Shown here: one piece after another, positions 11,793-34,374 of the stretch | Numbering within the stretch: the stretch's first letter is position 1 | Layout: each line of letters starts with the position of its first letter | NCBI GenBank assembly: GCA_029448655.1 | Contig: JACCLO010000009.1 | Location: 2,666,001 to 2,730,000, forward strand | Length of the DNA: 64,000 bases | DNA from: Wolfiporia cocos | Taxonomy: Eukaryota > Basidiomycota > Agaricomycetes > Polyporales > Phaeolaceae | Direction: 5' to 3' | Position numbers and translations under genes: made by a program | The notes under the pieces: model-generated | The model's input: the letters and a program-made list of their open reading frames with translations, nothing else | The model's database searches: none | Told to the model about the DNA's origin: nothing

Positions 11793-13386
11793 TACTCTAT
11801 CCTGGACCACTGGGGCGAAGCCGCGTGCTGCTTCCTTGGAGCCGTCTGTGTGGGATTGAACGCGCTCAAGGACGTCAGGCTAGACTCCTCGGATGCCGGA
11901 GATACGGTGCGTCGAGAACTCCACAATGCCTCTACTAACTACCCCCACTTGAGGTTAATTACCCAGCGGGTTTGCGTAGCACCAAGCACTTAAGATCACG
12001 TGCGCCACGTGCCGACCCTCCTTTCTCTCTTACCACCACCATCGCCTTAGGCGCTCACGTACCGTCCACCCATACGCCGACCCCCACGCACCGTCTCTCC
12101 CACCATGAACACCCAACGCACCGTCCCCAACACCCAGAGGGTCCAAACCGAAACCACATCAGCCACCTTTGCATTTGATCTACTTTTCAACGCTGCCCAG
12201 AGTATCCACCGGGCACACGAAACCAACTCCTCCAACTATGCTCTTCCACTTTAGAAGACTCACGTATCCTACCTCTTTACCGCAATCCAACATGGAGCTG
12301 ACGAAATCGCTCACACTGAAGCCCTCACCTTACTCACAGTGCGAGACACAGTCCGCCAACTCGCCAACCACTTAGACGCCATTCTGGCGCCTACTTTTCC
12401 CAACCCTATGCCCTACCCTATTCCCACACCTCCACCCTCACCGCCTGCTGCACGCACCACTATCCAGACCCATCAGGCGCCATACATCAAACGCTTAGTC
12501 ACCACATCCCGACTTCCATGACGCAAAACACCCCTGCCCAAACTCCATTGGGTACCCAACAAACCACCTACTCCCAACCCTACCCCTCCTGTAACCTCAC
12601 CAGCGATTACCCCACCCCCGACTGTCACCGTCAAATCACCTAAACAGTCCACTACCCCACCGCCTCCTCCTACACGCAACCACTCCCCCACACCATCCGC
12701 TCATACAGCGGATTCGGACGACACTGCTCACCCCCAACTCACCCACAACTCGCCCACGCCCACTCCTTTGGAACTATCCGCCGAAGACTACGCCATCAAT
12801 TATGGCACCCCTGCTGAACGTGCCATGTTTCCCCAATATTTTGGCTCTGATGGTCGACGTATCACTCCCCCAACTCGCTCACCCGTTTCTCAGTCACCCA
12901 TCCCATCCGCACCCCCACTCCCATCACCCATAACCACTCCTACCTCCATGGCTACACCTGCGGACACCACCGACGATTCTCCTCCTCAATCATGCAGACC
13001 GCTTTGGGTTGACCAAACTATGACAGCCCTCCTGGAACCTCCCATGTACGACCACCCCATAGGACCTACACCTTCCCTCGACATGATTCGCAATACCAGA
13101 CCTCCCACCCCAATCCCTAACACTTACACTGTCCAAATCAACGGCATCGCATGTCGCTACGATGACGGCACTCGCGTTACCAATCAAGACATTGCCGACA
13201 AATTCTTCTACGCACTCAGTCGAACTCCCTTCTACACCATTGCTCCACGACCATACCCCTTTGAACCTCACTTCATACGTTGGATGAACCCCAACATCCC
13301 TGACCACAAGACGCACTCCTCTGTTCTACTCTCATTCACCGATGCCGACGACGGCCATATACTCAAAGCGCTCGAGAGCGCTATCC
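11574..13386 (+). pseudogene. Decayed retroelement ORF1-like region
   Basis: A plus-strand, proline-rich coding region in three broken pieces. 11574-11993 begins MDLLQKPPPPPAVEPQ and has a helical EAAMRTALDALHSAVADF segment. A frameshifted middle lies around 12170-12520 (RDTVRQLANHLDAIL-like), and a last open part at 12768-13386 reads TRVTNQDIADKFFYAL and SVLLSFTDADDGHIL. The layout (proline-rich, then an RRM-like strand SVLLSF) suggests ORF1 of a LINE-type element, but that is inference. The frame stops abruptly where an LTR begins at 13387. Confidence 0.45.
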
Positions 13387-13525
13387 TGTTACGGTTATTT
13401 TAATTTTTCGAATATCGACAGAACTCACCACCGGGCGAATACGGTACAGGGACTTGTTGCGCAACCAACCCCCTGGCTACTCGTGACTATACTGGGCGTA
13501 TCCCCAGTTGTATTAGCATGTAGGG
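13387..13525 (+). mobile_element. Truncated gypsy LTR (first 139 bp), forward
   Basis: Starts TGTTACGGTTATTTT like the LTRs at 25922 and 40093 and follows them to TGTAGGG, where a complete LTR in the opposite orientation begins immediately at 13526. It is the 5' stump of an older LTR that interrupted the ORF1-like region and was itself interrupted. Confidence 0.8.
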
Positions 13526-14319
13526 TGTTACGGGTCGAATACCCGTTCGTATATTCGAGTCGCAAATATAGATCGTTCTTCTGCACGTAGGCTTGTTGCC
13601 GTATGCAAGGCAAATACTCGTTAGATGCCTTCAAGTCCTAGGTGAAGTTCCTAGGAGATCGTTCTTCTGCACGTAGGCTTATTGCCGTATGCAAGGCAAA
13701 TACTCGTTAGATGCCTTCGGGTCCTAAGTGAAGTCCTTAGGAGATCGATTAATATCCAATGCGCGTTAGAGGATATAATCTGTTCAGGTGCGAGTCGAAT
13801 AGAATATAAGACTCGCCTAAGTCCGAGAAGTCAGTGTGCACTTCGAGGACTTAGTCATTTGGTTGCTCGAGTGAGAAATACTGAGCGTAGTTTCCTACGT
13901 TTGAGAACGAGTATAAGACTTCTTGTTTGTACAACAAGGTCGAGCTGAAGAGCCTCGACGGTAAGTACATGAGTTTTTATACTACGCTAGGTTTCAGGGG
14001 TCAAGTCTGTCCCAGATGCCACCGATACTATCTATGCTATAGTCCCAAACGTTTGATAAGTATGGAGTGATATATCTGAGACGATAGATAGGAATGATGG
14101 CGGTTGAACGCCATCTGTCAGCTAATAAACGATGAACATGAAACGGTGGCAGGGTTGGATCTGCCGAAGATGAAACGAGCCCTACAGACTAGTACAACTG
14201 GGGGATGCGCCCAGTAAGATCACGAGTAGCCAGGGGGTTGGTTGCGCAACAAGTCCCTGTATCGTATTCGCCCGGTGGTGAGTTCTGTTGATATTCGAAA
14301 AATCAAAATAACCGTGACA
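13526..14319 (-). repeat. 3' LTR of gypsy copy 1
   Basis: Reads TGTCACGG to CCCGTAACA in element orientation, 794 bp. A direct duplication of about 82 bp lies near its 3' end (two runs of GGCATCTAACGAGTATTTGC), absent from the LTRs of copy 2 and from the solo LTR. The flanking 5 bp (TAGGG on the plus strand) do not match the outer flank of the 40093 LTR. Confidence 0.85.
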
Positions 14320-14330
14320 TCAGCTCCCTC

Positions 14331-17300
14331 CTATGCATTCGTCGGCCTCGACGAATTTTCCAAGTTCCCCTCTTCAGAGTGCCTCGGCGTCCTGTTCGTT
14401 GTAGATGTCGCCGTTCCCACTGAGGGACGGGGTCGTAGGAATTCGCCATACGAAGTGTTGGCGGCATTCATTCTGTCGATGACCTGGTTGATTGAGCCCA
14501 CAAGTTCTGCAAATATAATTGGGGCAGTCGAGGATCCAGTGGTTAGCGGAACCACATTGTCGACACGGCTGCTCGGGTGAGGGCCTCGCTGGTACCCGTA
14601 GGGAAGGGATATCGCGGAGGTATTCGTTATGTTGGTACCTCCAGTGGTGTGCGGCTCGGTGGAGGTTTCGTGCGGCCCATGTTGGTAGGGAGGCGGTGTC
14701 TCGTTCGTGCTCCCTCGCACCTCGCTCAAACTCCTCGCGGGTAATACTCTGCACTGAAGGAGATCGTCGAATAGGCGGCGTGCTATTCGCTCTTCGCTGT
14801 CGCGCTGGGGTAGCCCTAGGGCTCGTCGGGCGTGTAGGTGGTTCACGTCTCCCGTTGCCTCCCATACCAGAAATACGTGGCGTCGGGTCTCTAACTCCTG
14901 TTCGGCGGGCCCTCTGAGTCTCGGTAGGCAACGGAAATAATACTCTATCGCCCTCCATAAAATCAAACGGCCTTGCAACTCGGCGTCGTTCGTCGGGGGT
15001 GAAAAAGCGGGCGGGTTGCGGTGTGTATTCGGGTCGACCGGGAGTAACGTGCTCGCGATCCTCGAAGTCGTTGAGCGCGTGTCGTAGTCGGGCCGTCGTG
15101 GTGGCGGCCAATCTGTCGATAAGTCTGTTGGTGAGTAACTCGAGTCCCTCTCTCTGCGCTCTGATCTGCCCCTCCATTCGGACGAGGTCCTCGGTGATGT
15201 TCTGGTACGAGCTGTAGACGTGGGTGAGATCCTGCGCGATGTCGAAGAGGGCCGACCAGCCATCGGCTCGGCCAGCAAAAGGTCCCTCGGCCCTGTACCA
15301 GAGGAGGGCATGTCTAATCTGCAGATGCTGGGGGGAGTACCTCCTCGGCGGCGTACCTCTTGGTCGTCCTTCCCGGCGACCCGCGTCACTGTGGGGGGTC
15401 GTGGCGCGACGAGGGAGTTGGTGGCGAGTCGTCGACATATTATTACTGTTCGGCTTTCGAGTGTCGGGGTTGTTCTGACTCGCATTCGGTGGTAGCTTTT
15501 TATCAACTCCTTGGAATGCTCCAAGTTCGCCTCGTCTTCCCATGAGTTGTCGGCCGTGGCATAGCCTTTCCACTTGACGAAGTATTGATGCTTCTTTCTT
15601 TGCCATCTGTCAGCCAGGATGGCTTCGACTTCGTATTCTTCTTGTCCCTTGATGATATCAGGTGGCGGCCGTAGGTAATTGGGTCCGTGTACCCTTGTTT
15701 CTTTGAATGGTTTGAGTAAGGCAGCGTGGAAGACCGGATGAATTTTCCAATTTTCCGGTAACTGCAGCCGGTATGTCGTGGGTCCCATCTTTTCTGTGAT
15801 GGTGAAGGGTCCTTCTCTTTTTGGTGCCAGTTTGTTCGATTCATAGGGGATCGTTAGGTTTTTGGCGTCGAGCCAGACCTTATCCCCTTTCTCGAGCTTC
15901 GGTAGTTCTCTGAGGAGCCGCCCTGCCATTCTTTTCTGGGCTAATTCATGCGCAATGAATGCCATCTTTCGCGCCTCTTTGATTTTCTTGATCCTGTCGA
16001 CAGCTGCCGGGACGTTCCCTACTCTGTCATAGTCTGGGAATCCTCTCGGGACGTATCCTAGGATTATTTCAAGTGGCGCTGGCCGGTTTTCGGTCCGTCT
16101 GGTGTTGTGCGCAAATTCGACGTCAGGCAGTCGTTGTACCCATTGGAAAGGGTCGTTCATGCAATAGATACGGAGGTATACTTCGATCTGTTGGTTCATC
16201 CTTTCCATTTGTCCGTCTGTCTGGGGATGGTATGCTGTACTCATTGCTGACTCTGTTCCCTGCAGCTTGCATAATTCCCTGAATAGTTTTGATGCGAACT
16301 GTGGTCCCCTGTCCGAGATGATTTTTCGGGGAATGCCGTATTGTGAATATATCTTTTGATGGAATATTTCTGCGGCCCCTTCGCTTGTAATTGTTTTGTC
16401 GCATGGGGTGAGAGAGATGGCCTTGGATAGGCCATGGTCGACAATCACCATCATGGAGTCATACTTTCCGACTCTTGGCAGGTCGGTGACAAAATCAACC
16501 GAGCACTGTGAGAAGGGGAGGGCGTCTTCCCGTGTCGGTATTGGTTGCAAAGGGGGTTTTAGCGGATTCCTATCAGGTTTCATCTGTTGACAGATTGCAC
16601 AGCCCCGGACATATTCCGCTATCATTGTTCTCATGTCGGGCCACCAAAAGTGGGTCGTAACCTGTACTGTTGTACCCCAGATCCCGGGGTGTCCGGCCGG
16701 GATCGTGTTGTGGTATTTTGAGATGACGTCTCGTCGAAGGCCCTCGTCTCTTGGCACGTACATCCTGCCCTTGTAGAGCAGTATTCCATCCGTTTGTTGC
16801 CATTCATCTGCGGTGGTTCTCGCGGGGAATTCGCCTGTGCCCCCTAGAGCACGGATCGCCTGTTCCGCAGATTCATCTTGATCGTTGGCGTTCTTGATTC
16901 GATCAATGATCGGGATCTGGATTGCGTGGACGACGAGTTCGTCTGGAATCATGGTGATTCCCTCGTTGTCTTCGTTGCTTTCGTCCAGGTGGTACAACCT
17001 GGAAAGTGTGTCGGCCATGACTAGTTTCCTTCCGGGGACGTGCTGCAATTTCAGGTCGAATTGCGAAAGGAATAGATGCCATCTCGCTTGTCGCCGATTT
17101 AGGCGCTGTGCGCTTCTCCAATACGTCAGGTTCTGATGATCACTTCGGATCAAGATCCGATGCGGTGCTCCTTCCAATAGGTGCCGCCATTCTTCTAAGG
17201 CTCGGACTATTCCGAGTAGTTCGCGATCATAGATTTCATAGTTTTGTTCTGTAGATGTCAGGGATTGTGAGAGATATCCCACCGGCCGTTCGCGCCCTGT

Positions 17301-19385
17301 TTCATCGATCTGTTTCAGTACTGCTCCTGTGGCGAACTGAGATGCGTCTGTTTCGAGGATGAACGGTTTCTCCTTATCTGGTGTTCCTAGTGCGGGCGCC
17401 GTCGTGAATACTTGTTTCATGAAGTCGAACGCCTTCTGTTCTTTGTCCGTCCACTGGAACCCTGTTCCTGTGACCGTCTTTGTGAGGTCTACTAGGGGTC
17501 GGGCGTGCGTCGAGTAATGATCGATGAATTTTCGATAGAAGTTCGCGAATCCTAGGAAGGATCTGACTTCTTTGAGGTTTCGGGGGGTTGGCCATTCTTT
17601 AATCCCATTGAGTTTCGCTGGGTCCATCTGAATGTTTCCTGGGGTGATGACTAGCCCCAGAAATTCGACTCTGTCGACGCCGAAGGCGCATTTCTCGGGT
17701 TTCACAAAGAGGTGGTTGTCCACTAATTTCTGAAGGATCCGTCGTTCCCATTCCTTGTGTGTTTTCTCATCTTCTGAGAAAACGAGGATGTCGTCCATAT
17801 AAACAAGCACCCATCCTTCGAGGATTTCTTCTTTCAGGATTTCATTCATCATTGCCTGAAAGGTTCCGGGTGCGTTGCATAGTCCGAAAAACATAACCGT
17901 GGGCTCGTACAACCCTCGGTTTGTTTTGAAGGCTGCTTTCCATTCGTCTCCCTTCTTGATCCGCACGTTGTTGTATCCTGCTCTAAGATCCATTTTTGTG
18001 AAGATCTTTGCTCCTTTTAGCTTTTCCAGGAGCTCCGAGATCAGTGGTAAGGGATAGACGTTCTTTATCGTCCCTTCGTTCAGATATCGATAATCTTGAC
18101 AGGGTCGTAGGCCGCTGTCTTTCTTTGGGACGAAAAAGAATGGTGACGCCATCGGGGATTTTGAAGGGACTATAAATCCCTTGGCCAAGTTTTCTTTTAG
18201 GAATTCGTCCAACGCCTGTTGCTCTTTAGGCGAGAGTGCATAGACTTTGCAGTCTTTCGGCACGAAATCGGGTTTTAATTCAATTGCGTGGTCCCATGGT
18301 CTCGACGGGGGGAACGCTGCTGCGGACTCCTTGCTGAACACCTTGGCGAAGTCCAGTAGGTGTTTCGGGACCATCTCCTTAATCGTTCGTTCTGGTTCAG
18401 GGGTTTTCTGCGCAAATTCCTGGGATTTCGTCAGCGCTTTCCTGACAGCGTTGATGATTTGTATCTTTGTTCGGAACTTCTTTCGCGTCTCCCCTTTCTT
18501 TCCTATGATCCTAGGATTATCCTTTGCGAAGCATCGGATCGCTTCGTACTCCTCGGGAGTATAGAGCCGCTGCGCTGTTTCTTCTGGCTGGTCCGTGGAT
18601 CCAAACCCTTTCTCCCCTCGTTCTGTTTCATCTAGGTCTTTGACCTCTATAATGTCGGGGGTGAGGTGTCGTTCGAAAATTATCTGGGCTATTCGCATGC
18701 CCGGGATAATTCTATGTGCCTTGTCTGAGTAGTTGAAGACGATGGCTCCGACGTCTCCTCGGTAGTCCGAGTCTATGACTCCAGCTTGTACTACCAATCC
18801 GTGTCTGAGGGTGTTGCCTGATCGTCCGGCCAACCTCCCATACGATCCCTTCGGGATCTTCATTTTTACTCCTGTGGAGACGAGTTTCCATCCTCCGGCG
18901 GGAATCTCGGTTTCTTCTGCGGCGTAAAGGTCGTACCCTGCAGCTTCTTGGGTCCCCCTTGTTGGAATTTTCCCTTCTGGGGTGACTACCATTTCTACCG
19001 TATCCATTCGGATCATGGTTTCCTGTTTCTTTTCTTCTGCCCCTAGTATTGATCGTACATCGACTGTTTGGTCCTTCCAGTCGATTGTGGGGTTTTCGTC
19101 TTTTAGCCATCCATATCCTAGAATCATATTCTCTGTTCCGATTGATCCTACCAGGAACCGGACTTTTCGCGTTTTCTGGGTCTTCAGATATCGTAGTAGT
19201 ATGGTGGCTTCTCGGTCTATTCGCCCATCTTTGTTTTCTGTTCTGTCAACATTTTTGACGATGATCAGGTTCTTCAAGGGTTGCGTGGGCACCTTGTATT
19301 TTTCTACCACTCTGCTGTGGATCAGGTTCGACATTGCTCCTGAGTCGATTAGTGCGTTGCACTTCACGGGTTTTGCCAGCGTCAT
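14331..19385 (-). CDS. pol: Pol polyprotein: PR-dUTPase-RT-RH-IN-chromodomain
   Basis: 1684 codons, uninterrupted. Visible in order: aspartic protease (DSG at residues 14-16); dUTPase at ~138-264 with all five motifs (AAGYDLYA, GRLAGRSG, GVIDSDYRGDVG, PGMRIAQII, GEKGFGSTD); reverse transcriptase with YMDD at 529-532; RNase H (ETDAS, E in YDRELL, RSDHQN); integrase with the HHCC finger (CAICQQM), then the DDE triad (SVDF, IISDRGPQF, HPQTDGQMER); GPF/Y-type module (~1190-1230); and a chromodomain at ~1248-1298 (YEVEAIL, YFVKWKGY, SWEDEANL). About 385 further residues follow. The overlapping ORF3 suggests this tail is not itself the selected product. Pol lies in the -1 frame relative to gag. Confidence 0.93.
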   Translation of the reverse strand: MTLAKPVKCNALIDSGAMSNLIHSRVVEKYKVPTQPLKNLIIVKNVDRTENKDGRIDREATILLRYLKTQKTRKVRFLVGSIGTENMILGYGWLKDENPTIDWKDQTVDVRSILGAEEKKQETMIRMDTVEMVVTPEGKIPTRGTQEAAGYDLYAAEETEIPAGGWKLVSTGVKMKIPKGSYGRLAGRSGNTLRHGLVVQAGVIDSDYRGDVGAIVFNYSDKAHRIIPGMRIAQIIFERHLTPDIIEVKDLDETERGEKGFGSTDQPEETAQRLYTPEEYEAIRCFAKDNPRIIGKKGETRKKFRTKIQIINAVRKALTKSQEFAQKTPEPERTIKEMVPKHLLDFAKVFSKESAAAFPPSRPWDHAIELKPDFVPKDCKVYALSPKEQQALDEFLKENLAKGFIVPSKSPMASPFFFVPKKDSGLRPCQDYRYLNEGTIKNVYPLPLISELLEKLKGAKIFTKMDLRAGYNNVRIKKGDEWKAAFKTNRGLYEPTVMFFGLCNAPGTFQAMMNEILKEEILEGWVLVYMDDILVFSEDEKTHKEWERRILQKLVDNHLFVKPEKCAFGVDRVEFLGLVITPGNIQMDPAKLNGIKEWPTPRNLKEVRSFLGFANFYRKFIDHYSTHARPLVDLTKTVTGTGFQWTDKEQKAFDFMKQVFTTAPALGTPDKEKPFILETDASQFATGAVLKQIDETGRERPVGYLSQSLTSTEQNYEIYDRELLGIVRALEEWRHLLEGAPHRILIRSDHQNLTYWRSAQRLNRRQARWHLFLSQFDLKLQHVPGRKLVMADTLSRLYHLDESNEDNEGITMIPDELVVHAIQIPIIDRIKNANDQDESAEQAIRALGGTGEFPARTTADEWQQTDGILLYKGRMYVPRDEGLRRDVISKYHNTIPAGHPGIWGTTVQVTTHFWWPDMRTMIAEYVRGCAICQQMKPDRNPLKPPLQPIPTREDALPFSQCSVDFVTDLPRVGKYDSMMVIVDHGLSKAISLTPCDKTITSEGAAEIFHQKIYSQYGIPRKIISDRGPQFASKLFRELCKLQGTESAMSTAYHPQTDGQMERMNQQIEVYLRIYCMNDPFQWVQRLPDVEFAHNTRRTENRPAPLEIILGYVPRGFPDYDRVGNVPAAVDRIKKIKEARKMAFIAHELAQKRMAGRLLRELPKLEKGDKVWLDAKNLTIPYESNKLAPKREGPFTITEKMGPTTYRLQLPENWKIHPVFHAALLKPFKETRVHGPNYLRPPPDIIKGQEEYEVEAILADRWQRKKHQYFVKWKGYATADNSWEDEANLEHSKELIKSYHRMRVRTTPTLESRTVIICRRLATNSLVAPRPPTVTRVAGKDDQEVRRRGGTPPSICRLDMPSSGTGPRDLLLAEPMAGRPSSTSRRISPTSTARTRTSPRTSSEWRGRSERRERDSSYSPTDLSTDWPPPRRPDYDTRSTTSRIASTLLPVDPNTHRNPPAFSPPTNDAELQGRLILWRAIEYYFRCLPRLRGPAEQELETRRHVFLVWEATGDVNHLHARRALGLPQRDSEERIARRLFDDLLQCRVLPARSLSEVRGSTNETPPPYQHGPHETSTEPHTTGGTNITNTSAISLPYGYQRGPHPSSRVDNVVPLTTGSSTAPIIFAELVGSINQVIDRMNAANTSYGEFLRPRPSVGTATSTTNRTPRHSEEGNLENSSRPTNA
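14374..15438 (-). CDS. ORF3: overprinted zinc-knuckle protein (copy 1)
   Basis: 354 codons in the -1 frame relative to pol, starting at ATG 15438 just after the chromodomain and ending 43 bp before the pol stop. Composition: Arg/Pro-rich N-terminus; helical centre (TEDLVRMEGQIRAQREGLE, then NRLIDRLAATTTARLRHAL); basic RS-rich stretch; then two knuckles near the C-terminus, CRQCGSANHWILDC (C-x2-C-x4-H-x4-C) and CRTCGLNQPGHRQNEC (C-x2-C-x6-H-x4-C). The equivalent frame in copy 2 is intact at 32548-33609. Between copies, the first ~36 codons show 13 silent and 1 replacement difference outside one small indel block. Likely a nucleic-acid-binding accessory protein; function and expression route (frameshift, reinitiation or spliced RNA) unknown. 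Confidence 0.75.
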   Translation of the reverse strand: MSTTRHQLPRRATTPHSDAGRREGRPRGTPPRRYSPQHLQIRHALLWYRAEGPFAGRADGWSALFDIAQDLTHVYSSYQNITEDLVRMEGQIRAQREGLELLTNRLIDRLAATTTARLRHALNDFEDREHVTPGRPEYTPQPARFFTPDERRRVARPFDFMEGDRVLFPLPTETQRARRTGVRDPTPRISGMGGNGRREPPTRPTSPRATPARQRRANSTPPIRRSPSVQSITREEFERGAREHERDTASLPTWAARNLHRAAHHWRYQHNEYLRDIPSLRVPARPSPEQPCRQCGSANHWILDCPNYICRTCGLNQPGHRQNECRQHFVWRIPTTPSLSGNGDIYNEQDAEAL

Positions 19386-19474
19386 GATTACCGGGATGAA
19401 GAGGGATCGATTCTTCTCGAACGAGGTAATTACATGCGCTGCTTTCTCGGAGGGTAAGACCGTGGGCTTCCCTC

Positions 19475-21056
19475 CTAGGCAAAATCCTGTTCTTCTACGA
19501 GCCGTGCTAGGAGCTCGGGGTTCTTGGCTTTCAGGGCCCTAATTGCTGTGACCGCTCTGTTAGCGGTGATGTATTCAGTCTCTTCCTCAGAGACTTCTTC
19601 GATGCGAGCTTCTTGCTCAGCTTCTTCTTCTTCGGTCTTTCGAGTAGTCCGCCTAGGGCGGGCTGGCTTCCTCGGCCTCTTCGGGCAGTCTCGCGACATA
19701 TGCCCTGGCTGATGACAGATGAAACATTTTCCCTTCTTGATGTGATCGTCCCTTTCCTGGGTGGTCATTCGATCTACATCCATCGCATTCGAATCTTTCG
19801 GTGCGGTTGTCTGTGGAGCACTAGTGCATCCATTATTCTGGTTCGAGGCTTGCCAAGCCTTTTTCTTGACAAACGGTTTGTCCCGTTTCAAGAATATCTT
19901 GTACGTATTTTCATAGTACGAGGCAGCGGACTGCCATTCATCAATGGTCGCTGGTAGCGGCCGAACGCCGATGATGTATCGGGTCGTATGTTCGGGTAAC
20001 CCTTTCTCAAAGAGGGTTATGAGCAACGCGTTTCCGTCCGCGCTGTATCGATCGTACTGGGCCTTTCCGGCCAAGTTATTGAATTCGGTGATGTAGTCAT
20101 CGATGTCTTTTCTGTCCTGGGTTACGTCCAGGATTTTCTTCCGCGCCTTCTGTACTTCTTCGATGGCTCCGAAGGCTTTTTGGAAGTCTGCATCAAACTG
20201 TGCAAGACTAGGCGGGAAGAATCGTTTCATCTGGGGGTTCGTATAAACCCGGTGATAATTCTGTTTCCATTGGCCCGTTTTCCCCTTGTTCGAAATATAA
20301 GAGAGGATAAAGATCACTCTCTGAACGTCGTTCTGGAATGACGTTTCGTACATCGTAAACCAGGAATTGCACTGGTTTATGAAGTTCTGCATGTCGGATC
20401 GTTCCCCGTCGAATACGTCTGGGGGATTGATCTTTATCATTGGGGGTCGGTAGTACGGGTTCGGCGCATTCGGTGGTGGAGGCCCTCCTGGGGGTCCTCC
20501 TCTTCCCGGGTATCCTCCACCCGGGTTTCCTGGGTTTCCTCCGGGGTTCCCTGGGTTCCCTCCAGGGTTTCCTCCTCCGGGGTTCGCGGGGGTTCCTCCT
20601 CCGAGTCCTCCAGGAGGGGGGGCATTCCCTCCTCCGAGTCCGAAGTTTCCTCCCAGTCCTCCTCCGCTTGTACCTGCGGAGGTTCGTCCAAATAGGCCTG
20701 AAGGCCATGTTCCTGGGTTTGTCGTTCCCATTCCTCCGCTTGGGCTAGTCCAAGACGGATTTCCTCCGCTACCCATTCCGGGTGCGTTCTGTGGGGGGTT
20801 TCCAAAGAGGTCTGTTCCTCCAGCCATAGGCCCAATCCCACTCTGCGCAAAAGCAGATACAAATCCTGGAGGGTCCTGTCCTCTGGTCTGGCTGTTATCT
20901 GTTCCTGTAAAGTTTCCAGGATTTCTCCCATCATCTCCGATGCGCTCAATTCCTGCCATTCCTGTGGCGCCCGAAGGCTGATTCGTATTTCCATCGGCAT
21001 TGAAGGTTCTGTTGATGGTTTCGGTTTCGTTTTCGGTCAACGTCGCGGTTGACATC
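19475..21056 (-). pseudogene. gag: Gag, 5'-truncated (copy 1)
   Basis: Retains the Gly/Pro-rich linker, the capsid region (PPMIKINPPDVFDGE, QRVIFILSYI, FEKGLPEHTTRY) and one CCHC zinc knuckle (CFICHQPGHMSRDC), then a Lys/Glu-rich end and a TAG stop. The N-terminal ~85 codons are missing. The frame instead continues upstream in phase with the SET-MYND exon by chance. GATTTTGCCTAG at the stop contains a TTTT run next to the stop; pol is open in the -1 frame across it, so frameshifting there is possible. Confidence 0.85.
20437..21000 (-). CDS. Overprinted ORF inside gag (copy 1)
   Basis: 188 codons from ATG 21000, in the +1 frame relative to gag, ending just before the capsid-coding part. It predicts a helical, strongly acidic protein (SASEMMGEILETLQEQ, WVAEEIRLGLAQAEEWER, then Glu/Pro/Thr-rich to the end), while gag in the same stretch is only Gly/Pro/Asn-rich. 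The frame is kept in copy 2 (26974-27558). Comparing copies, I count 7 silent and 2 replacement changes in this frame against 2 silent and 7 replacement changes in the gag frame. No family is recognised. Confidence 0.65.
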   Translation of the reverse strand: MPMEIRISLRAPQEWQELSASEMMGEILETLQEQITARPEDRTLQDLYLLLRRVGLGLWLEEQTSLETPHRTHPEWVAEEIRLGLAQAEEWERQTQEHGLQAYLDEPPQVQAEEDWEETSDSEEGMPPLLEDSEEEPPRTPEEETLEGTQGTPEETQETRVEDTREEEDPQEGLHHRMRRTRTTDPQ

Positions 21057-22083
21057 CATTCGCAGAGATGTTTCGAGTATGATGAGCTCCTGGGAGCCAC
21101 GAGCAGGCGGAGGGATTGGTCGAAGCCACTTGGTGGACGAGCAAAGCTGACAGGTACACGTGAATCCATAGTTAAGCTGTAGTGCATCTCTGCGCGTATC
21201 GCGCGGTAGAGCAGGGTCCAGGTATGGTATAGTGATCTGTCGTCGAAATTCACAATAGGAGCTCGCGTATATGAACGCGATACGGAGAGCAATTCCTACC
21301 TCTTCGCCCTCAGCAATGTCTCGTATAGCCACAACTTCCATTCGGACTGGCTCGGAGACGATGTTGATGTATCTTGCAACGGCATTCGGTGCGCATGAAT
21401 GGTTGAAAAACCTGCTTGCTAGGGGAAACACGCCATGTGCATACGAGTTGAGATGAGAATGCAAGACGAAGTTGTTATTCCCGAACCGAGAGAATAGTTC
21501 GTGCGCAGCTCTCTGGCAGGAGGGGTCACCCGTCTTGGACCTCGCACCGCATATCGGAGGTACGCGTATATCCAGTCGCGAACCCTTCAATAGATCGGTG
21601 CATTCATACAGCGGGATATTATGCTCAGCTTGAAGAGAGAAGTTGTCATGAGGGAATAACTGCATGACCAGGTGTGACAGTAGCACAGCGTCTACCCGCT
21701 CGTTAGAGCTCAAGCCTTGATATCCAGGAGATGCAACAAAGCTGCTGTAATACTTGCAAACTCTCTTATGATGTGCGTTCCATTGCCTAGTCTGACCTGT
21801 GGAGCCGAGGGTCAGCTTGCCAGCCTGCTCTGCTACTTCAGCACATACATTCTGAACCACAGTACCAATATGCAGCGCAGCCAGTGCATTTGCGTAGCCT
21901 TATGTCTCCGGACTCTATTACGTGACAATTGTCACAACGGCGTCCTTTCTCCGATGGTAGTAAGGCTGTGACGAGCGACGGGACAGAAATTACAACTGAG
22001 CCCAGAGCCAAAGCCTCCACAGATATGGCTTGATTCCATGCTGTTTGGTGGGGAGCTGACACAAGCGCAACCTTAAGACACAC
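21057..22083 (-). pseudogene. SET-MYND (SMYD-like) protein, N-terminal half
   Basis: Exon 1 (21849-22083) encodes a MYND zinc finger (RRCDNC, KCTGCAAYWYCGSEC). A 52-bp intron at 21797-21848 (GTATGT...CACAG) joins it in frame to exon 2, which completes the finger (QWNAHHKRVC). Exon 2 then gives the SET domain core (SRFFNHSCAPNAV, the S-adenosylmethionine-binding NHS motif) and the Cys-rich post-SET part (NYGFTCTCQLC). SMYD proteins methylate lysines. The coding sequence stops being SMYD at 21057, where gypsy gag begins. The matching C-terminal half is at 41176-41660, plus strand. The gene is therefore disrupted; the 5' start may include a further small exon. Confidence 0.88.
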
Positions 22084-25000
22084 ACCGGGGGAAGGTGGGT
22101 CGCATGAAAGCGCCTTCCTGGTCCGGGCATCTCAAGGCACAAAAGGCCAAGACAAGTCTGAGGTTTATGCTCAGGACTGTCCGGCATATATACTCCTAAC
22201 TATTTGTACATGTTGTGGTACGGTGGCTCAGAGGCCTCTACGTACTGGTATCTAACTGGCTATGAGCTATGTGCCGGTAATGGCATCGGAGCGCTGGGGT
22301 ACGCGAGGATGTCCATGGCGACGTAGCGTATAAGGGTCGGATCAAAGGGATAGCCAATCGGTCGGGTTCGATCAGTGGTTCTCGTCGATTGTAGGTGCGC
22401 CGGTAATGGCAGGGTTCTAAGTCCGTGATTGGGCGTGGTCTGCCGCGATCGGGGTCGTGACGTCATAATGACCGGTGGTCCTTGTCGGTCGGGTCTATGC
22501 CAGTAATGGCGGTGGTGATCGGTAGGTTACGTCAATCGGGGTTCTATCGGTGGTTCTCGTCGATAGGAGTTCTGCCGCGCCAATGGCAGGGTTTATACAG
22601 GGTGTGGTCTGGGAGCGCGCGAGCGGTCCATGTTCCCAAAGGGTTACGTACTAAAGGTCGATCGTTCACGGCCTAGGTTCCGAGGTTCATGGTACTGAGG
22701 AGAAGCTGTAGTGTGAATGCGTAGAGTGTAAGTCTAGTGCCTGTAATGGCGTGGGTTCATGGAGATGGGAGGCGTAGGGTTTGGTTGGTTGGGTGGACGT
22801 GGTTTAGTCCTAGCCGTAAGTCTTGGTTAGCATGAGCCAAGGGTCAGCTTAGCGTTAGCCAAGGGTTGGCTTAACGTGAGCCAAGGGTCATGTGACTTGT
22901 GTGGCTTTGTACTGGACTTGGACGTGTGGTCTTGGACTGAGTTTAGGGCTAGACTGCTGGTGGCCTGCTAGTGCCCGTAGTGTTCTGTATAGTGGAGGGC
23001 TTCTACTAGCATTGCCGTGGGATTCCAGCTGGGCTCGGATAGAGTGCTGTAGCGTGCGTACGGCGTGAATGGGGTGTCAACCTAGGGTGTTCTACTAGGC
23101 TTTGAAATTGGCTTGTGACAGTACCCCCTCTTTTAGCAACTCGTCCCCGAGTTTCCTTGCAAGTTCCTTGGACATGGTTCGACTGTGCTTGTCTGCACCG
23201 GGCGTGGTGTACTATTGGTCTGGTTTCGACGTTCTAGTGCCCGCGTCCTTTAGTCTACTTGTTGGTGTGACCAGTGGTGTCTGAAGTGCTAGTGTATAGC
23301 TTTTCTACTTCAGTGGTCCTATGCCTACATGTCCTGCTGGTGCTATCTGACCAGTGTGTTTGACTCTGAGCTCTGTCTACCGTTGGATCACCTTGGACGC
23401 ACGGGTCCTTGGGTCCTGTAGACGTCCTTGCTCTTTGTCTTACGTGTTCCCTGGTTTTGACAGTGGGTTGTAGTGTAGTGCGTGTATGGTATGTCCGCGT
23501 GTCTTTTCTACACAACCCGCTTGCAAGTATCTTTCCCTGGAGCGATCGTTGTTCAATTGACTAGCTCCTTGTGTCCTGCGAAGTGTCGTTGTTCGATTGA
23601 CTGTTTCCTTCGTGTGTCCGTTGTCCTTGTTTGTCCCTTCCTTCCTATTCCTGGTGTTTCTCCGTATCTCCGTGGTTTGTGGTAGGAATGTTTCGTCTAC
23701 CGTGGGTGTACGTAACTGAATGAATGTAAGTAATAAGTCCTGGTTCCTATCCATATGTATCCTATCTGTATAGTAGGGGGGATGTGGTTCCTTTGCTTTT
23801 TGGGTATATGGTTTTCGTTACTGTGGTATGTGTCTTTTTATTTTATTTATATGTTTTTTGTCTTTTATATATTTTTGTATGTTTTTTTTTGTTTCTTTTG
23901 TTTGCCTTCAATCGTGGCGTAATTTTATATCGTAAGGGTCATGATGTATCATAATGTTTCGTTGGAAGTGGGGTGTCTGGTTTGTTCTCCCCGGATTAGT
24001 ATAGTAAAGGTGTGCCTTTTGCTTGTTGCACTGTTGTCTACTGCCTAAGTACGTGTGTGCGTGATGGCCTGGTTTGTCAAATGCCGCATAGTGGTAGCCC
24101 TTTACCATGTCTTTGGTGAGGCAAGGGTTCGTTGTCGATGTCCAGAAGGGGTGATTTTTCGTTAAATTGACCCGAAATAATCGATTTCCCCCCCTAGATT
24201 CAAGCTGTCCTCGGCTTGTCGTTTCCCTTTACTTCTACTCCTTTCCCTTTACTTTCTCTCCCTTCGTGCTTGGTCTGAGGGCGCTTCAGCGGCCTTGGTT
24301 CCCGAGATCATGGTACTGGGAGTCGTTTGCGACTCGTGTTCCCAAGGGTTACGGTACTGAAGGGTGGCGTGGCGTGGACGCAAGCTTGCTGAGATCGGGT
24401 TTCTAGGTACTTGGATCCTTCCATGTTCGTTCAAGGTGCGTATGTTTCCCCGCATCCTTGGTAGTTCGTTATTCTATTTTATAAATATAAACGAGTGATT
24501 AGCGGTTCAAGGGGCGCTATCCCCTTGTGAGCTTGTTCGTGCTCGGGTATAGTATCTCTAGTAGGGTTTCCCCAGTGTTTCTAGAGATTGAGTCGTTGCA
24601 GCGGGCCCGTAGGTTCCCGTGCTAGTCGTATACTTCCGAGGAATGTCTCGTCTTGGTTGTATTGGTTCATTATATTACTATGGGCGATTCTATTGCCCCT
24701 GTGTTCGATGTATAGGGATTATCTTATGCTCATAGCGATCCAGGGCATAATACACTCGCCTGGGTCTCTACGAGCGTAAGGGTATGGTATTTTTATTTTA
24801 TTAGAGCGTTAGGGTCTCGCTCTGGTTTATTGTATAAGAGGTGGCGTGTTTTGCCGTGTTCCCTCTTAGTGTATATTGTCCCTTCCCTTTTCGAGTTCCT
24901 CATAGTGCTTTTTAAAAGGAAAGTACTTAGCTACGCCCGGTCTGGTTTACCGGGAGGTCATGGCATTGGTTCTTTTCTAGCCATCTGAGTCTACTGGGGG

Positions 25001-25916
25001 TTGGTGTAGGGGCTGTCCGGCTGCCCGATCCGTTTTATGGCCGGAATCGCCGAATGAGTGTGTGGGGCACTAATGGCCCAAAGCGTTGAAAGGGGCACTG
25101 CTTGGCCCGCGTATGAGGTCGATTCGGGTTGAGGGACGATGGTGCAGTCCTGTGGTCGTGTAACCGGACATGAGAGGCGGTCCCTGTTCCCACTGCCATA
25201 TTCTGGCTTAGGTACTGGGGAGTGGCGTCATGCCGGGATTGGTCGGCTTCCATGGTCTTTACTGGTGACGGCTACATGTTCAGCCATTGGCCCAGGCAGT
25301 GTATGCCTGATCTCCTGCTCGGTTCGTTTCTTCCTATGTACGTTAGTGAATTATACTTTAAAATGCGCGATCTAGCGCGTGTGGGTATAGTGGCTGGGCA
25401 TCTGGTTCGTGTGCGGCCCATAGTTCTGGGTTAGGGTCCGGCACGTGATGCTTTGCCTGCCTTGACCCTGTCGAAGGCGGGGTATAGGTGTATGTTGTTA
25501 CAGCCATCTGCTGGGGTGGTGTGTCGGCAGCGGCGACTTGCTTTACTTGATGATTTTAGTCAGTATAGGTGGTTCGAGAGCGAGCGGAGGGCGTTGCTTC
25601 CTCGGCTGGTGGTTCCGGTTTCTCAGCGCTCCTGATGAGGGTAGCGCGAGGACTAGGGAACCCCTGCTTTGGTTGCGGCTCCCTCAGGCTGCTCGGTTAC
25701 AACGAGGGTGCGCGCCGTATTGGGTTACCAGGACCCCCTCTTTAGGGTTGGTCCTTCTACTATTCCTGTTCCTGTTTTTTCTAGAATGTAAGCAGGTATA
25801 ATGGTACATCCCCATGATCTACTTGGTTCAGATCGGGGGTGGGGTATAGTTCATTGACCAGGATGCTGCATCAGTCGTGGTTCGTAAACTGGCTGTGTGC
25901 CCAGTTTGTAGGTTGG
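22084..25916. other. Gene-poor, repeat-derived region (left of copy 2)
   Basis: No intact gene. It contains recurring short motifs (GCCGGTAATGGC-like at ~22270, 22390, 22500, 22740; GAGCCAAGGGTCA-like at ~22810-22890; GTTCCCAAGGGTTACGGTACTGA at ~24340 and a variant at ~22630) and a T-rich tract near 23820-23900. On the minus strand at ~23095-23175 a short peptide (KELARKLGDELLKEGVL) is followed by a polypurine run (AAAAGAGGGGGTA) and TGTCAC, the usual arrangement at the 3' end of a chromovirus. I infer a decayed, largely non-coding LTR element into which copy 2 inserted. Confidence 0.4.
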
Positions 25917-25921
25917 TCTGC
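25917..25921. repeat. Target-site duplication TCTGC (left) of copy 2
   Basis: TCTGC immediately before the 5' LTR is repeated immediately after the 3' LTR at 34375-34379. A 5-bp duplication is standard for Ty3/gypsy integrases and shows that copy 2 sits where it inserted. Confidence 0.92.
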
Positions 25922-26632
25922 TGTTACGGTTATTTTGATTTTTCGAACGCTGACGGAACTCACCACTGGGTGAATACGATACAGGGACTTGTTGCACAAC
26001 CAACCCCCTGGCTACTCGTGACTCGTACTGGGCTCATCCCCAGTTGTATTAGCGTAGAGGGCGCGTTTCATCCTTGGCAGATCCAACTCTGCCCTCGTTT
26101 CATGTTCATTGTTTATTAGTTGACAGATGGCGTTCAACCGCCATCATCATTCCTATCTATCGTCTCAGATATATCACTACATACTTATCAAACGTTTGGA
26201 ACTATAGCGTAGATAGTAGCGGTGACATCGGGGACGGACTTGACCCCTAAAACCTAACGAAGTATATAAACTCATGTACTTACTGTCGAGGCTCCTCAGC
26301 TCGACCTTGTTGTATAAACAAGAAGTCTTATACTCGTTCTCAAATGTAGGAAACTACGCTCAGTATTTTTCGCTCGAGCAACCGAACGACTAAGTCCTCG
26401 AAGTGCACACTGACTTCTCGGACTTAGGCGAGTCTTATACTCTATTAGACTCGCACCTGAACAGATTATATCCTCTAACGCGTATTGGATATTATACGAT
26501 CTCCTAGGAACTTCACCTAGGACTTGAAGGCATCTAACGAGCATTTGCCTTGCATACGGCTATACGCCCACGTGCAGAAGAACGATCTATATTCGCGACT
26601 CGAATATACGAACGGGTATTCGACCCGTAACA
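25922..26632 (+). repeat. 5' LTR of copy 2
   Basis: 711 bp, TGTTACGG...CCGTAACA with perfect 8-bp inverted termini. It contains a TATA box (26273-26280) and the 11-nt primer sequence (26298-26308). It lacks the 82-bp internal duplication found in the split element. Confidence 0.93.
26273..26280 (+). promoter_or_regulatory. LTR TATA box
   Basis: TATATAAA lies 25 bp upstream of 26298, so transcription would be expected to start at or near AGCTCGACCTT, exactly the segment complementary to the PBS. The position supports a self-priming mechanism. Confidence 0.65.
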
Positions 26633-31600: not shown

Positions 31601-33652
31601 AGCGAAGGGGCCGCAGAAATATTCCATTGAAAAATATATTCGCAATACGGCATTCCCCGAAAGATTATTTCAGACAGGGGACCGCAGTTTGCATCGAAGC
31701 TTTTCAAGGAATTATGCAAGCTGCAGGGAACGGAATCAGCAATGAGCACGGCGTACCATCCACAGACCGACGGACAGACAGAAAGGATGAATCAACAGAT
31801 CGAAGTATACCTTCGCATCTATTGCATGAACGACCCGTTCCAATGGGTACAGCGACTGCCTGACGTCGAATTTGCGCACAACACCAGACGAACCAAAAAC
31901 CGACCAGCGCCACTTGAAATAATCCTAGGATACGTCCCGAGGGGATTCCCAGATTATGACAGAGTAGGGAACGTCCCGGCAGCAGTTGACAGGATCAAGA
32001 AGATCAAAGAGGCGCGAAAGATGGCATTCATCGCGCATGAATTAGCCCAGAAAAGAATGGCAGGGCGATTCCTCAGAGAACTGCCAAAGCTTGAGAAAGG
32101 GGACAAGGTCTGGCTCGACGCCAAGAACCTAACAATCCCCTACGAATCGAACAAACTAGCACCAAAAAGAGAAGGACCTTTCACCGTCGCAGAAAAGATG
32201 GGACCCACGACATACCGGTTGCAGTTACCAAGGAACTGGAAAATTCATCCGGTATTCCATGCCGCCTTACTAAAACCGTTCAGGGAAACGAGGGTGCATG
32301 GACCCAATTACCTACGGCCGCCACCTGATATCATCAAGGGGCAAGAAGAATACGAAGTCGAAGCCATCTTGGCTGATAGATGGCGAGGGAAGAAGCATCA
32401 GTACTTCGTCAAGTGGAAAGGCTATGCCACGGCCGACAACTCATGGGAAGATGAGGTGGACTTGGAGCATTCCAAGGAGCTGATAAAAGACTACCACAGG
32501 ACGAGAGTCAGGACAACCCCGACACTCGAAAACAAGACAGTAATAGTATGTCGACGACTCGCCACCAGCTCCCCCGCCGTACCACGACCCCTGGCGATGC
32601 AGATCGTCGAGAAGGCCGACCGCGAGGTACGCCACCAAGAAGGTACTCCCCCCAGCATCTGCAGATTAGACACGCCCTCCTCTGGTACAGGGCCGAGGGA
32701 CCTTTTGCTGGCCGAGCCGATGGCTGGTTGGCCCTCTTCGACATCACGCAGGACCTCACCCACGTCTACAGCTCATACCAGAACATCACCGAGGACCTCG
32801 TCCGAATGGAGGGGCAGATCAGAGCACAGAGAGAGGGACTCGAGCTACTCACCGACAGACTTATCGACCGATTGGCCGCCACCACGACGGCCCGACTACG
32901 ACACGCGCTCAACGACTTCGAGGATCGCGAGCACGTTGCTCCCAACCGACCCGAATACACACCGCGACCCGCCCGCTTTTTCACCCCCGACGAACGACGC
33001 CGAGTTGCAAGGCCGTTTGATTTTATGGAGGGCGATAGAGTATTATTTCCGTTGCCTACCGAGACTCAGAGGGCCCGCCGAACAGGAGTTAGAGACCCGA
33101 CGCCACGTATTTCTGGTATGGGAGGCAACGGGAGACGTGAACCACTTGCACGCCCGACGAGCCCTAGGGCTACCCCAGCGCGACAACGAAGAGCGAATAG
33201 CACGCCGCCTATTCGACGATCTCCTTCAGTGCAGAGTATTACCCGCGAGGAGTTTGAGCGAGGTGCGAGGGAGCACGAACGAGACACCGCCTCCCTACCA
33301 ACATGGGCCGCACGAAACCTCCACCGAGCCGCACACCACTGGAGATATCAGCATAATGAATACCTCCGCGATATCCCTTCCCTACGGGTACCAGCGAGGC
33401 CCTCGCCTGAGCAGCCGTGCCGACAATGTGGTTCCGCTAACCACTGGATCCTCGACTGCCCCGATTATATTTGCAGAACTTGTGGACTCAATCAACCAGG
33501 TCATCGACAGAATGAATGCTGCCAACACTTCGTATGGCGAACTCCTACGACCCCGTCCCTCAGCGGGAACGGCGACATCTACAACGAACAGGATGCCGAG
33601 GCACTCTGAAGAGGGGAACTTGGAAAATTCGTCGAGGCCGACGAATGCTTAG
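28610..33652 (+). pseudogene. pol: Pol polyprotein, broken (copy 2)
   Basis: Same domain order as copy 1: protease DSG, dUTPase, YMDD reverse transcriptase, RNase H, integrase, chromodomain (YFVKWKGY). It is interrupted by TGA at 31250-31252 (CGA in copy 1) and TGA at 31628-31630 (CAA in copy 1), both in the integrase part. Nine bases are also missing in RNase H (LLGIVRAL in copy 1 reads LLRAL here). The three open parts are 28610-31252, 31253-31630 and 31631-33652. The element probably used enzymes from an intact relative such as copy 1 before its disruption. Confidence 0.92.
32548..33609 (+). CDS. ORF3: overprinted zinc-knuckle protein (copy 2)
   Basis: 353 codons from ATG 32548, -1 frame relative to pol, intact although pol upstream is broken. 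It has the same architecture as copy 1: basic N-terminus, helical centre (RMEGQIRAQREGLELL), RS-rich region, and two C-terminal knuckles (CRQCGSANHWILDC; CRTCGLNQPGHRQNEC). An upstream in-frame stop (TGA at about 32454 in this frame) rules out a long N-terminal extension here, so ATG 32548 is the conserved start. The CACCACTGG...GAATAC stretch differs from copy 1 at four bases, all silent in this frame and all replacing residues in pol. Confidence 0.75.
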   Translation: MSTTRHQLPRRTTTPGDADRREGRPRGTPPRRYSPQHLQIRHALLWYRAEGPFAGRADGWLALFDITQDLTHVYSSYQNITEDLVRMEGQIRAQREGLELLTDRLIDRLAATTTARLRHALNDFEDREHVAPNRPEYTPRPARFFTPDERRRVARPFDFMEGDRVLFPLPTETQRARRTGVRDPTPRISGMGGNGRREPLARPTSPRATPARQRRANSTPPIRRSPSVQSITREEFERGAREHERDTASLPTWAARNLHRAAHHWRYQHNEYLRDIPSLRVPARPSPEQPCRQCGSANHWILDCPDYICRTCGLNQPGHRQNECCQHFVWRTPTTPSLSGNGDIYNEQDAEAL

Positions 33653-33663
33653 GGAGGGGCTGA
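33652..33663 (+). other. Polypurine tract of copy 2
   Basis: Purine-rich GGGAGGGGCTGA directly before the 3' LTR, overlapping the pol stop region. This is the expected primer for plus-strand DNA synthesis. Confidence 0.65.
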
Positions 33664-34374
33664 TGTTACGGTTATTTTGATTTTTCGAACGCTGACGGAA
33701 CTCACCACTGGGTGAATACGATACAGGGACTTGTTGCACAACCAACCCCCTGGCTACTCGTGACTCGTACTGGGCTCATCCCCAGTTGTATTAGCGTAGA
33801 GGGCGCGTTTCATCCTTGGCAGATCCAACTCTGCCCTCGTTTCATGTTCATTGTTTATTAGTTGACAGATGGCGTTCAACCGCCATCATCATTCCTATCT
33901 ATCGTCTCAGATATATCACTACATACTTATCAAACGTTTGGAACTATAGCGTAGATAGTAGCGGTGACATCGGGGACGGACTTGACCCCTAAAACCTAAC
34001 GAAGTATATAAACTCATGTACTTACTGTCGAGGCTCCTCAGCTCGACCTTGTTGTATAAACAAGAAGTCTTATACTCGTTCTCAAATGTAGGAAACTACG
34101 CTCAGTATTTTTCGCTCGAGCAACCGAACGACTAAGTCCTCGAAGTGCACACTGACTTCTCGGACTTAGGCGAGTCTTATACTCTATTAGACTCGCACCT
34201 GAACAGATTATATCCTCTAACGCGTATTGGATATTATACGATCTCCTAGGAACTTCACCTAGGACTTGAAGGCATCTAACGAGCATTTGCCTTGCATACG
34301 GCTATACGCCCACGTGCAGAAGAACGATCTATATTCGCGACTCGAATATACGAACGGGTATTCTACCCGTAACA
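33664..34374 (+). repeat. 3' LTR of copy 2
   Basis: 711 bp, identical by eye to the 5' LTR except one base near its end. Followed by TCTGC (34375-34379), the right target duplication. Confidence 0.93.

Follow-up and report, generated by a model that had tools for sequence, protein, structure and literature searches.

Can the end of a retrotransposon pol gene encode two proteins at once? The question is raised by a 64,000-nucleotide stretch of the Wolfiporia cocos genome (contig JACCLO010000009.1; hereafter, the window), in which one chromodomain Ty3/gypsy family is present twice—copy 1 on the minus strand and copy 2 on the plus strand—with a long open reading frame, termed ORF3, wholly nested in the 3' end of pol. 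A preliminary description of this DNA had taken ORF3 for a real protein under purifying selection and the pol tail overlapping it for a probably passive frame. The reading favored here, to which we assign a probability of roughly 0.6 from the sequence comparisons below, is that ORF3 and the pol tail constitute a long dual-coding region, with ORF3 yielding a separate accessory protein from a subgenomic mRNA.

A reading frame nested in the 3' end of pol

ORF3 occupies positions 14374..15438 of the minus strand in copy 1 (354 codons plus TGA) and 32548..33609 of the plus strand in copy 2 (353 codons plus TGA), at −1 relative to pol; the frame, coordinates and two-knuckle motif had been described correctly. 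The pol gene of copy 1 (14331..19385, minus strand, 1684 codons) encodes a protease (a weak match to gag-asp_proteas, E = 0.007), a dUTPase (18594-18974, minus strand, Pfam E = 2.9e-37) located between protease and RT, then RT, RNase H, integrase, a chromodomain (Pfam match at 15486-15635, minus strand) and a tail of 384 residues without any Pfam match. The order of protease, RT, RNase H, integrase and chromodomain is that of the Ty3/gypsy chromodomain elements. The gag gene of copy 1 (19475..21292, minus strand) carries its own CCHC knuckle, recognized by Pfam. As noted previously, ORF3 starts just past the chromodomain, with its ATG 48 nt beyond the end of the Pfam match (15486), and it ends 43 nt before the end of pol—an overlap that takes up the last ~1.06 kb of the gene. 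A genome-wide survey of dUTPase places, with 150 of 1428 candidates scored, revealed at least three open-frame classes, including at least two other dUTPase-bearing classes with open frames of about 2254 and 2340 aa.

Long terminal repeats at both ends were found in copy 2 only, at 25915..26214 (5' LTR, plus strand, with the repeat extending to at least about 26258) and 33657..33956 (3' LTR, plus strand). The pol gene of this copy is broken into frames of 880 and 636 codons and its stop codon lies at 33652, so ORF3 and pol reach the purine-rich stretch and the 3' LTR. A search around copy 1 (window positions 12500-24000) gave no LTR pair, and the sequence upstream of its gag is unlike that of copy 2; for these two reasons, the 5' end of copy 1 is probably truncated or recombined. 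A tandem pair of an 86-bp unit, with the two units 93% alike, lies directly downstream of copy 1 (13570-13741). In copy 2, the G+C content of the overlap is 0.56-0.63, as opposed to about 0.50 in pol upstream, such that an imported module is as possible an origin as the overprinting of an old tail. Codon usage across the whole overlap was close to that of shuffled sequence in all three frames.

The family has several hundred candidate copies in the genome—an unusually well-sampled case of two frames on one DNA. A search with the ORF3 protein listed 115 matches from 633 first-look candidates, 24 of the 115 with an internal stop. Our main sample consists of 76 of these listed matches, mostly picked by ORF3 similarity (copy 2 is L066 therein); all belong to one family and are at most 10% apart. 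Within the 76, a DNA-picked set comprises 33 of the 40 copies from a DNA search, and it is the fairer one, since the protein-picked full set looks more conserved. The ORF3 ATG and TGA were present in 76/76 copies, and its length was 1062 or 1065 nt in all of them, a uniformity that picking by ORF3 similarity favors. ORF3 was free of stops in 61/76 copies (24/33 DNA-picked) and pol was stop-free across the overlap in 66/76 (30/33 DNA-picked). The ORF3 stops fall at 17 sites, 13 of which are CGA-to-TGA changes, each seen in one or two copies, and they look like decay after insertion. An integrase-region search listed 40 copies from 497 candidates, and three new ones (L090, L091 and L092) were examined. 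L091 and L092 have two ORF3 stops each; the pol tail of L091 reads through to its natural end, and that of L092 is interrupted by a single stop (codon 334 of 368). L090 departs from the family sequence about half way. With ORF3 broken in 3/3 and the pol tail whole in 1/3, the intact share of ORF3 overall is probably below that of our sample, although these copies concern decay and not the shared-variant test described below. We also considered a second family (about nine loci with a W. cocos query), in which the ORF3 first half and a pol-type second half would lie in one frame; it was rejected, as indels that shift the frame account for the two loci examined, L084 and L085, which are otherwise ordinary copies with both frames readable downstream.

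Purifying selection on ORF3

Because position 3 of ORF3 codons coincides with pol position 2, and ORF3 position 1 with pol position 3, selection on the two frames can be distinguished. Among alignment columns with a second allele in at least 5/76 copies, the counts at pol positions 1, 2 and 3 upstream of ORF3 are 15, 12 and 141. By ORF3 positions, the corresponding counts are 21, 5 and 34 in the first part of ORF3 and 7, 4 and 39 in the second part, which holds the knuckles—and the switch in the variable codon position occurs at about 15498-15438. We further derived a dN/dS-like ratio from disjoint nearest pairs, with the same kinds of substitution re-placed at random as the null. The ratio was 0.285 for ORF3 across all copies (37 pairs) and 0.394 in the DNA-picked set (16 pairs), while pol upstream gave 0.148 and 0.141, respectively.

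We also split the variants by age (single-copy versus shared by at least four copies), with CpG context kept in the null. Shared variants in ORF3 across the 76 copies comprised 101 silent changes (44.0 expected), 37 replacements (88.3 expected) and no stops (5.2 expected); the 33 DNA-picked copies gave 41 (18.4), 15 (35.7) and 0 (1.7), respectively, and pol upstream gave 193 (70.7), 32 (145.9) and 0 (8.3). Single-copy variants in ORF3, in contrast, were near neutral in the 76 copies, with 69 silent changes (59.1 expected), 110 replacements (118.5) and 13 stops (13.8); in pol upstream they were not quite so, with 71 (51.0), 99 (114.7) and 3 (7.3). The stop ratios from nearest pairs looked near neutral for ORF3, at 0.98 (DNA-picked) and 0.76 (all), and were lower for pol, at 0.39 and 0.58. 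Judging by the split between single-copy and shared variants, the ORF3 stops seem to be of recent origin. Moreover, in 5000 synonymous shuffles of the copy 1 pol tail, ORF3 was open in none (mean, 10.4 stops), and its openness is therefore more than chance.

The comparison of the two window copies, on which the preliminary description had relied, points the same way, with 31 silent changes and 14 replacements across the whole of ORF3. For the first 36 codons, a ratio of 13 silent changes to one replacement had been claimed; the differences are indeed mostly silent and the indel is 3 nt long, but our recount gave 14 silent changes and three replacements (A12T, S17G and G20D). The earlier count is probably explained by the position of S17G and G20D, which adjoin the indel. 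In the CACCACTGG..GAATAC stretch, the four differences are, as originally reported, all silent in ORF3 and all replacing in pol. Taken from its own ATG to its stop, ORF3 was shown by these substitution patterns to be under strong purifying selection in both protein-picked and DNA-picked copies. Shared variants are mostly silent, with few replacements and no stops, and single-copy variants depart little from neutrality; ORF3 is therefore very probably a protein under selection, as first proposed. The copies share a history, part of which is disregarded by bootstraps across pairs or variants.

Probable selection on the overlapping pol tail

To describe both frames jointly, we fitted a two-factor model, with one factor for ORF3-replacing and one for pol-replacing changes, to pairs of copies as well as to shared variants. 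In a same-geometry control, pol upstream served as the real frame, with pol+1 as the dummy; an other-geometry control placed the dummy of pol upstream in the ORF3 frame. For pairs at ≥3%, the factors were 0.16 for ORF3, 0.43 for pol (90% bootstrap interval, 0.39-0.47) and 1.09 for the dummy with all copies, and 0.20, 0.42 (0.36-0.47) and 1.06 in the DNA-picked set. Variants shared by at least three copies gave 0.14 for ORF3 (95% interval, 0.09-0.20), 0.43 for pol (0.30-0.62) and 1.49 for the control (0.94-2.38) with all copies, and 0.09, 0.28 (0.14-0.49) and 1.65 (0.97-3.77) when DNA-picked. Under a trinucleotide null, the ORF3 factor was 0.21 with all copies and 0.25 when DNA-picked, the pol factor 0.61 and 0.51, and the dummy 1.34 and 1.40, respectively.

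That ORF3 alone codes, with the pol tail carried along passively, agrees with several of these results. The pol factor is 0.73-1.12 across four pair sets in the first 120 nt of the overlap, i.e., constraint is absent there, in a segment that belongs to the part considered by the preliminary description; a sliding fit gives 0.87-0.96 at 14778-14509 with all copies (0.47-0.50 when DNA-picked); the marginal pol-frame ratio is near 1 (0.91-1.20); and the two window copies differ in the pol frame over the ORF3 stretch by 34 replacements versus 9 silent changes. Downstream of the first 120 nt, however, the joint factor of 0.43 against the control value of 1.49 departs from a passive frame, with factors of 0.34-0.37 and 0.26-0.37 in the following two 300-nt parts and 0.42-0.61 in the last part. 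Doubly silent variants are 4.4- to 7.8-fold above chance, as opposed to just 1.8- to 2.6-fold in the same-geometry control. ORF3-replacing differences in nearest pairs (all copies) are depleted most where they also replace in pol (130 vs. 299.8 expected) and less where they are pol-silent (196 vs. 265.5), a gap that the control lacks (162 vs. 436.8 and 112 vs. 332.9). Pol is also stop-free in most copies (66/76, as above), even though synonymous shuffles of ORF3 codons almost never leave it open (3/5000; mean, 4.4 stops). We consider the passive tail unlikely, albeit with some weight left to it.

Fourfold sites add to this argument. In pol-only sequence upstream, 87/145 are variable, and for ORF3 fourfold sites the five successive parts gave 16/24 (first 120 nt), 9/48, 8/61, 16/31 (14718-14529) and 2/22—hardly any variation in three of the five parts and normal variation in the first and fourth. 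Silent ORF3 variation is very low at 15318-14719 and 14528-14377; a cis signal may also reside in the latter segment, which is close to the LTR and the purine-rich stretch. Low variation in both segments would suit a region constrained as RNA or DNA (e.g., a packaging signal or an internal promoter) instead of protein, yet the constraint depends on the frame: the third one shows none, with a factor of 1.50 (0.89-2.73), and is rich in stops (895 in 76 copies), which makes this explanation highly improbable.

Part of the pol signal could nonetheless stem from the method, because the controls dip as well. The other-geometry control falls to 0.85-0.88 for pairs, and for shared variants to 0.64 (0.46-0.95) and 0.72 (0.44-1.29). 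Single-copy variants, for which neutrality is expected, gave ORF3 and pol factors of 0.69 and 0.75 (all) and 0.60 and 0.58 (DNA-picked), with control values of 0.53 and 0.33 for the real frame and 0.67 (0.50-0.93) and 0.77 (0.54-1.12) for the same-geometry dummy. These dips, the patchy pol factor and the non-independence of variants from the family tree render dual constraint likely, not proven. The pol-frame tail at 14331..15318 (minus strand) is seemingly constrained in the two-frame fits, and purifying selection on pol, weaker than that on ORF3 and less firmly supported, would act from about 120 nt downstream of the ORF3 ATG. The comparison of both frames across copies, suggested in the preliminary description, bore out the constraint on ORF3 along its length, but not the contrast with a freely changing pol tail. 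Judged as an overlapping gene pair, by purifying selection in both frames, the case is firm for ORF3 and carries the above reservations for the pol tail, and we regard constraint on both frames as probable.

Expression and predicted function of ORF3

The ORF3 start context, ACAGTAATAATATG (15436..15449, minus strand), has an A at position −3 without a single variant in 76 copies, other single bases varying in 0-8 copies. It lies inside an AT-rich stretch, where the five bases at 15454-15450 (alignment positions 1184-1188) vary in 11-21 copies. Alternatively, a −1 frameshift could add ORF3 to Pol as a C-terminal domain, with no separate protein: ORF3 is in the −1 frame relative to pol and, in 54/76 copies, this frame stays open for 32-58 codons ahead of the ATG. 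Against such a frameshift, the remaining 22/76 copies have an in-frame stop 5-7 codons ahead of the ATG, and both the ATG and the A at −3 are invariant. The common start is for these reasons taken to be the ATG itself, and the frameshift is very unlikely. A related W. cocos gene model, P0005, also begins with a like MSTSR, while a second, P0006, was modeled with a different start. With some 3.9 kb of pol ahead of the ORF3 ATG, translation from it probably requires a subgenomic RNA. A donor-like GTGGGT at 26840 was the single one seen in the leader and gag of copy 2.

P0005 and P0006, both from W. cocos, were the only ORF3 homologues found among the candidates scored from a database of 5.77 billion proteins (4057 in one search and a capped 7992 in another). 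Gene annotation rarely retains overlapping frames, and the lack of matches elsewhere is consequently weak evidence. In both models, the first part follows the ORF3 frame and the second part the pol frame (122/190 and 109/179 aligned residues identical), with a TNA end as in pol; the good survival of the pol frame in them agrees with pol-frame constraint. At changed positions, the pol-frame residues of these models left the ORF3 residue encodable in 43/67 (P0005) and 42/68 (P0006) cases, against expectations of 30.3 and 30.9. The third frame, for which there is no expectation of its own, nevertheless reached 42/67 and 45/68, which makes the comparison weak. The nine Cys/His residues checked were compatible in both. 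The pol tail, as part of pol, had no match among 7991 candidates scored in the protein database, a search whose length limits exclude P0005 and P0006, and no match was found in the viral contigs searched.

The join in these two gene models raises the possibility that a short intron fuses the first half of ORF3 to a second half in the pol frame; unspliced RNA would then give the knuckle protein, and spliced RNA another one. A weak candidate of 55 nt (GTTTGA..CTCAG, 14914..14968, minus strand) would make this join: removal of its GT..AG segment yields RRVARPGPAEQELE, to be compared with GRVARPSPAEQELE in P0005, and its GT is present in 75/76 copies and its AG in 76/76. On the other hand, GTTTGA is a weak donor, a scan nearby in copy 1 found no better donor-acceptor pair, and no CTNAY branch site was seen by eye. 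Strong constraint on the pol frame is seen even ahead of the putative exon, where the intron would not require it. Furthermore, the W. cocos gene models are predictions, and L084 and L085 show similar joins that arise from frame-shifting indels. Such splicing appears quite unlikely. A still broader proposal, hardly less doubtful, is a 1-kb pair with both frames selected and read in three ways (Pol with its tail, a knuckle protein from the internal ATG and a spliced chimera), which would give the element a retrovirus-like accessory layer by overprinting.

Turning to the ORF3 protein, its two zinc knuckles are encoded at 14464..14565 (minus strand, residues 292-325) in copy 1 and, by sequence motif, at 33418..33519 (plus strand) in copy 2. 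They had been described as CCHC-type; both are present, but only knuckle 1 (CX2CX4HX4C, residues 292-305) is canonical, knuckle 2 being CX2CX6HX4C (residues 310-325, with 29 residues after it). The Pfam zf-CCHC model scored two stretches just under its cut-off (E = 9e-4, 19.7 bits vs. 20.8), and the RNA-binding reading of ORF3 depends on these knuckles. The protein has 56 Arg and no Lys in 354 residues. It has no hydrophobic or membrane-spanning segment (top 19-residue hydropathy, 0.33), in line with the stated absence of a membrane helix, and no gag or capsid Pfam family was found at a maximal E of 10, a result that leaves distant folds possible. An AlphaFold2 model (22 sequences) was poor, with a mean pLDDT of 47.5; its helices (36-51, 61-129, 234-249 and 253-269) all precede the knuckles. 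Residues 61-129 form one long predicted helix (15052..15258, minus strand; pLDDT by tens, 56-78), which may oligomerize the protein. The pol-tail model (13 sequences) reached a pLDDT of 33.1, and the best E value in a PDB profile search was 0.38.

As had been suggested, ORF3 looks like a nucleic-acid-binding protein, and an accessory RNA-binding role has, in our judgment, about even odds. Under the favored dual-coding reading, the last ~1.06 kb of pol would encode two proteins at once. A subgenomic mRNA, either spliced or transcribed from an internal promoter, would be translated from the ORF3 ATG into a distinct protein, rich in Arg and free of Lys; its long helix would oligomerize, its knuckles would bind the RNA of the element, and the protein may have an accessory function in RNA chaperoning, packaging or export. 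The pol tail could represent a flexible C-terminal extension of the integrase-chromodomain. Most likely, then, ORF3 would make an oligomerizing, RNA-binding accessory protein from a subgenomic mRNA.

Gypsy elements account for 25.49% of the published Wolfiporia hoelen assembly (PMC9503964), and fungal members are mostly described with gag and pol alone, in one ORF or two (PMC2864245). The same source places a dUTPase between PR and RT in PosPlaTy3-5 of Postia placenta, a fungal chromodomain Gypsy element, as is the case here, and the legend of its Figure 3 refers to an additional ORF of unknown function in some element, for which the text states no position or sequence (PMC2864245). The open-access literature searched yielded no fungal gypsy element in which a knuckle protein overprints pol. 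The gag nucleocapsid of the same element shares a CCHC knuckle with ORF3; gag, however, retains its own knuckle and a capsid-like region, and ORF3 matches no gag family. Nor does ORF3 encode the membrane-spanning segment of retroviral or errantivirus env. The additional ORFs of plant and rotifer elements are likewise third sense genes at the place of env, and most rotifer lineages carry a dUTPase, as does the element bearing ORF3. The plant ones, in contrast, lie between pol and the LTR and the rotifer ones encode env-like, GDSL or DEDDy proteins, and these accounts make no mention of overlap or of a zinc knuckle; the aORF-3S class, located between the pol stop and the 3' LTR, does not accommodate ORF3 either. 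While additional ORFs near pol are already known, the nested two-frame form appears to be new, and a gene hidden in a second frame of pol is for that reason easily overlooked by annotation.

Two further systems can be compared. CERV of Cer1, a C. elegans gypsy-type LTR element, is an accessory protein that, like ORF3, has an exon in its own reading frame and combines a helical zipper-like part with a cysteine-rich part, and it is needed for export of Cer1 genomic RNA (PMC10309623). Unlike ORF3, it has a demonstrated five-exon mRNA, with exons 1-3 in the gag frame, as well as a possible C4 finger and globular domains (PMC10309623). The hepadnavirus PreS/S frame, of ~1.1 kb, lies fully inside the polymerase gene of a reverse-transcribing element, as ORF3 does (PMC5604429). 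There, S encodes an envelope protein over the spacer and RT and is shifted one nucleotide downstream, whereas ORF3 follows the chromodomain, uses the other relative frame and encodes no hydrophobic stretch (PMC5604429). If the dual-coding reading holds true, fungal gypsy elements could gain accessory, RNA-handling genes without lengthening—just as hepadnaviruses and complex retroviruses do.
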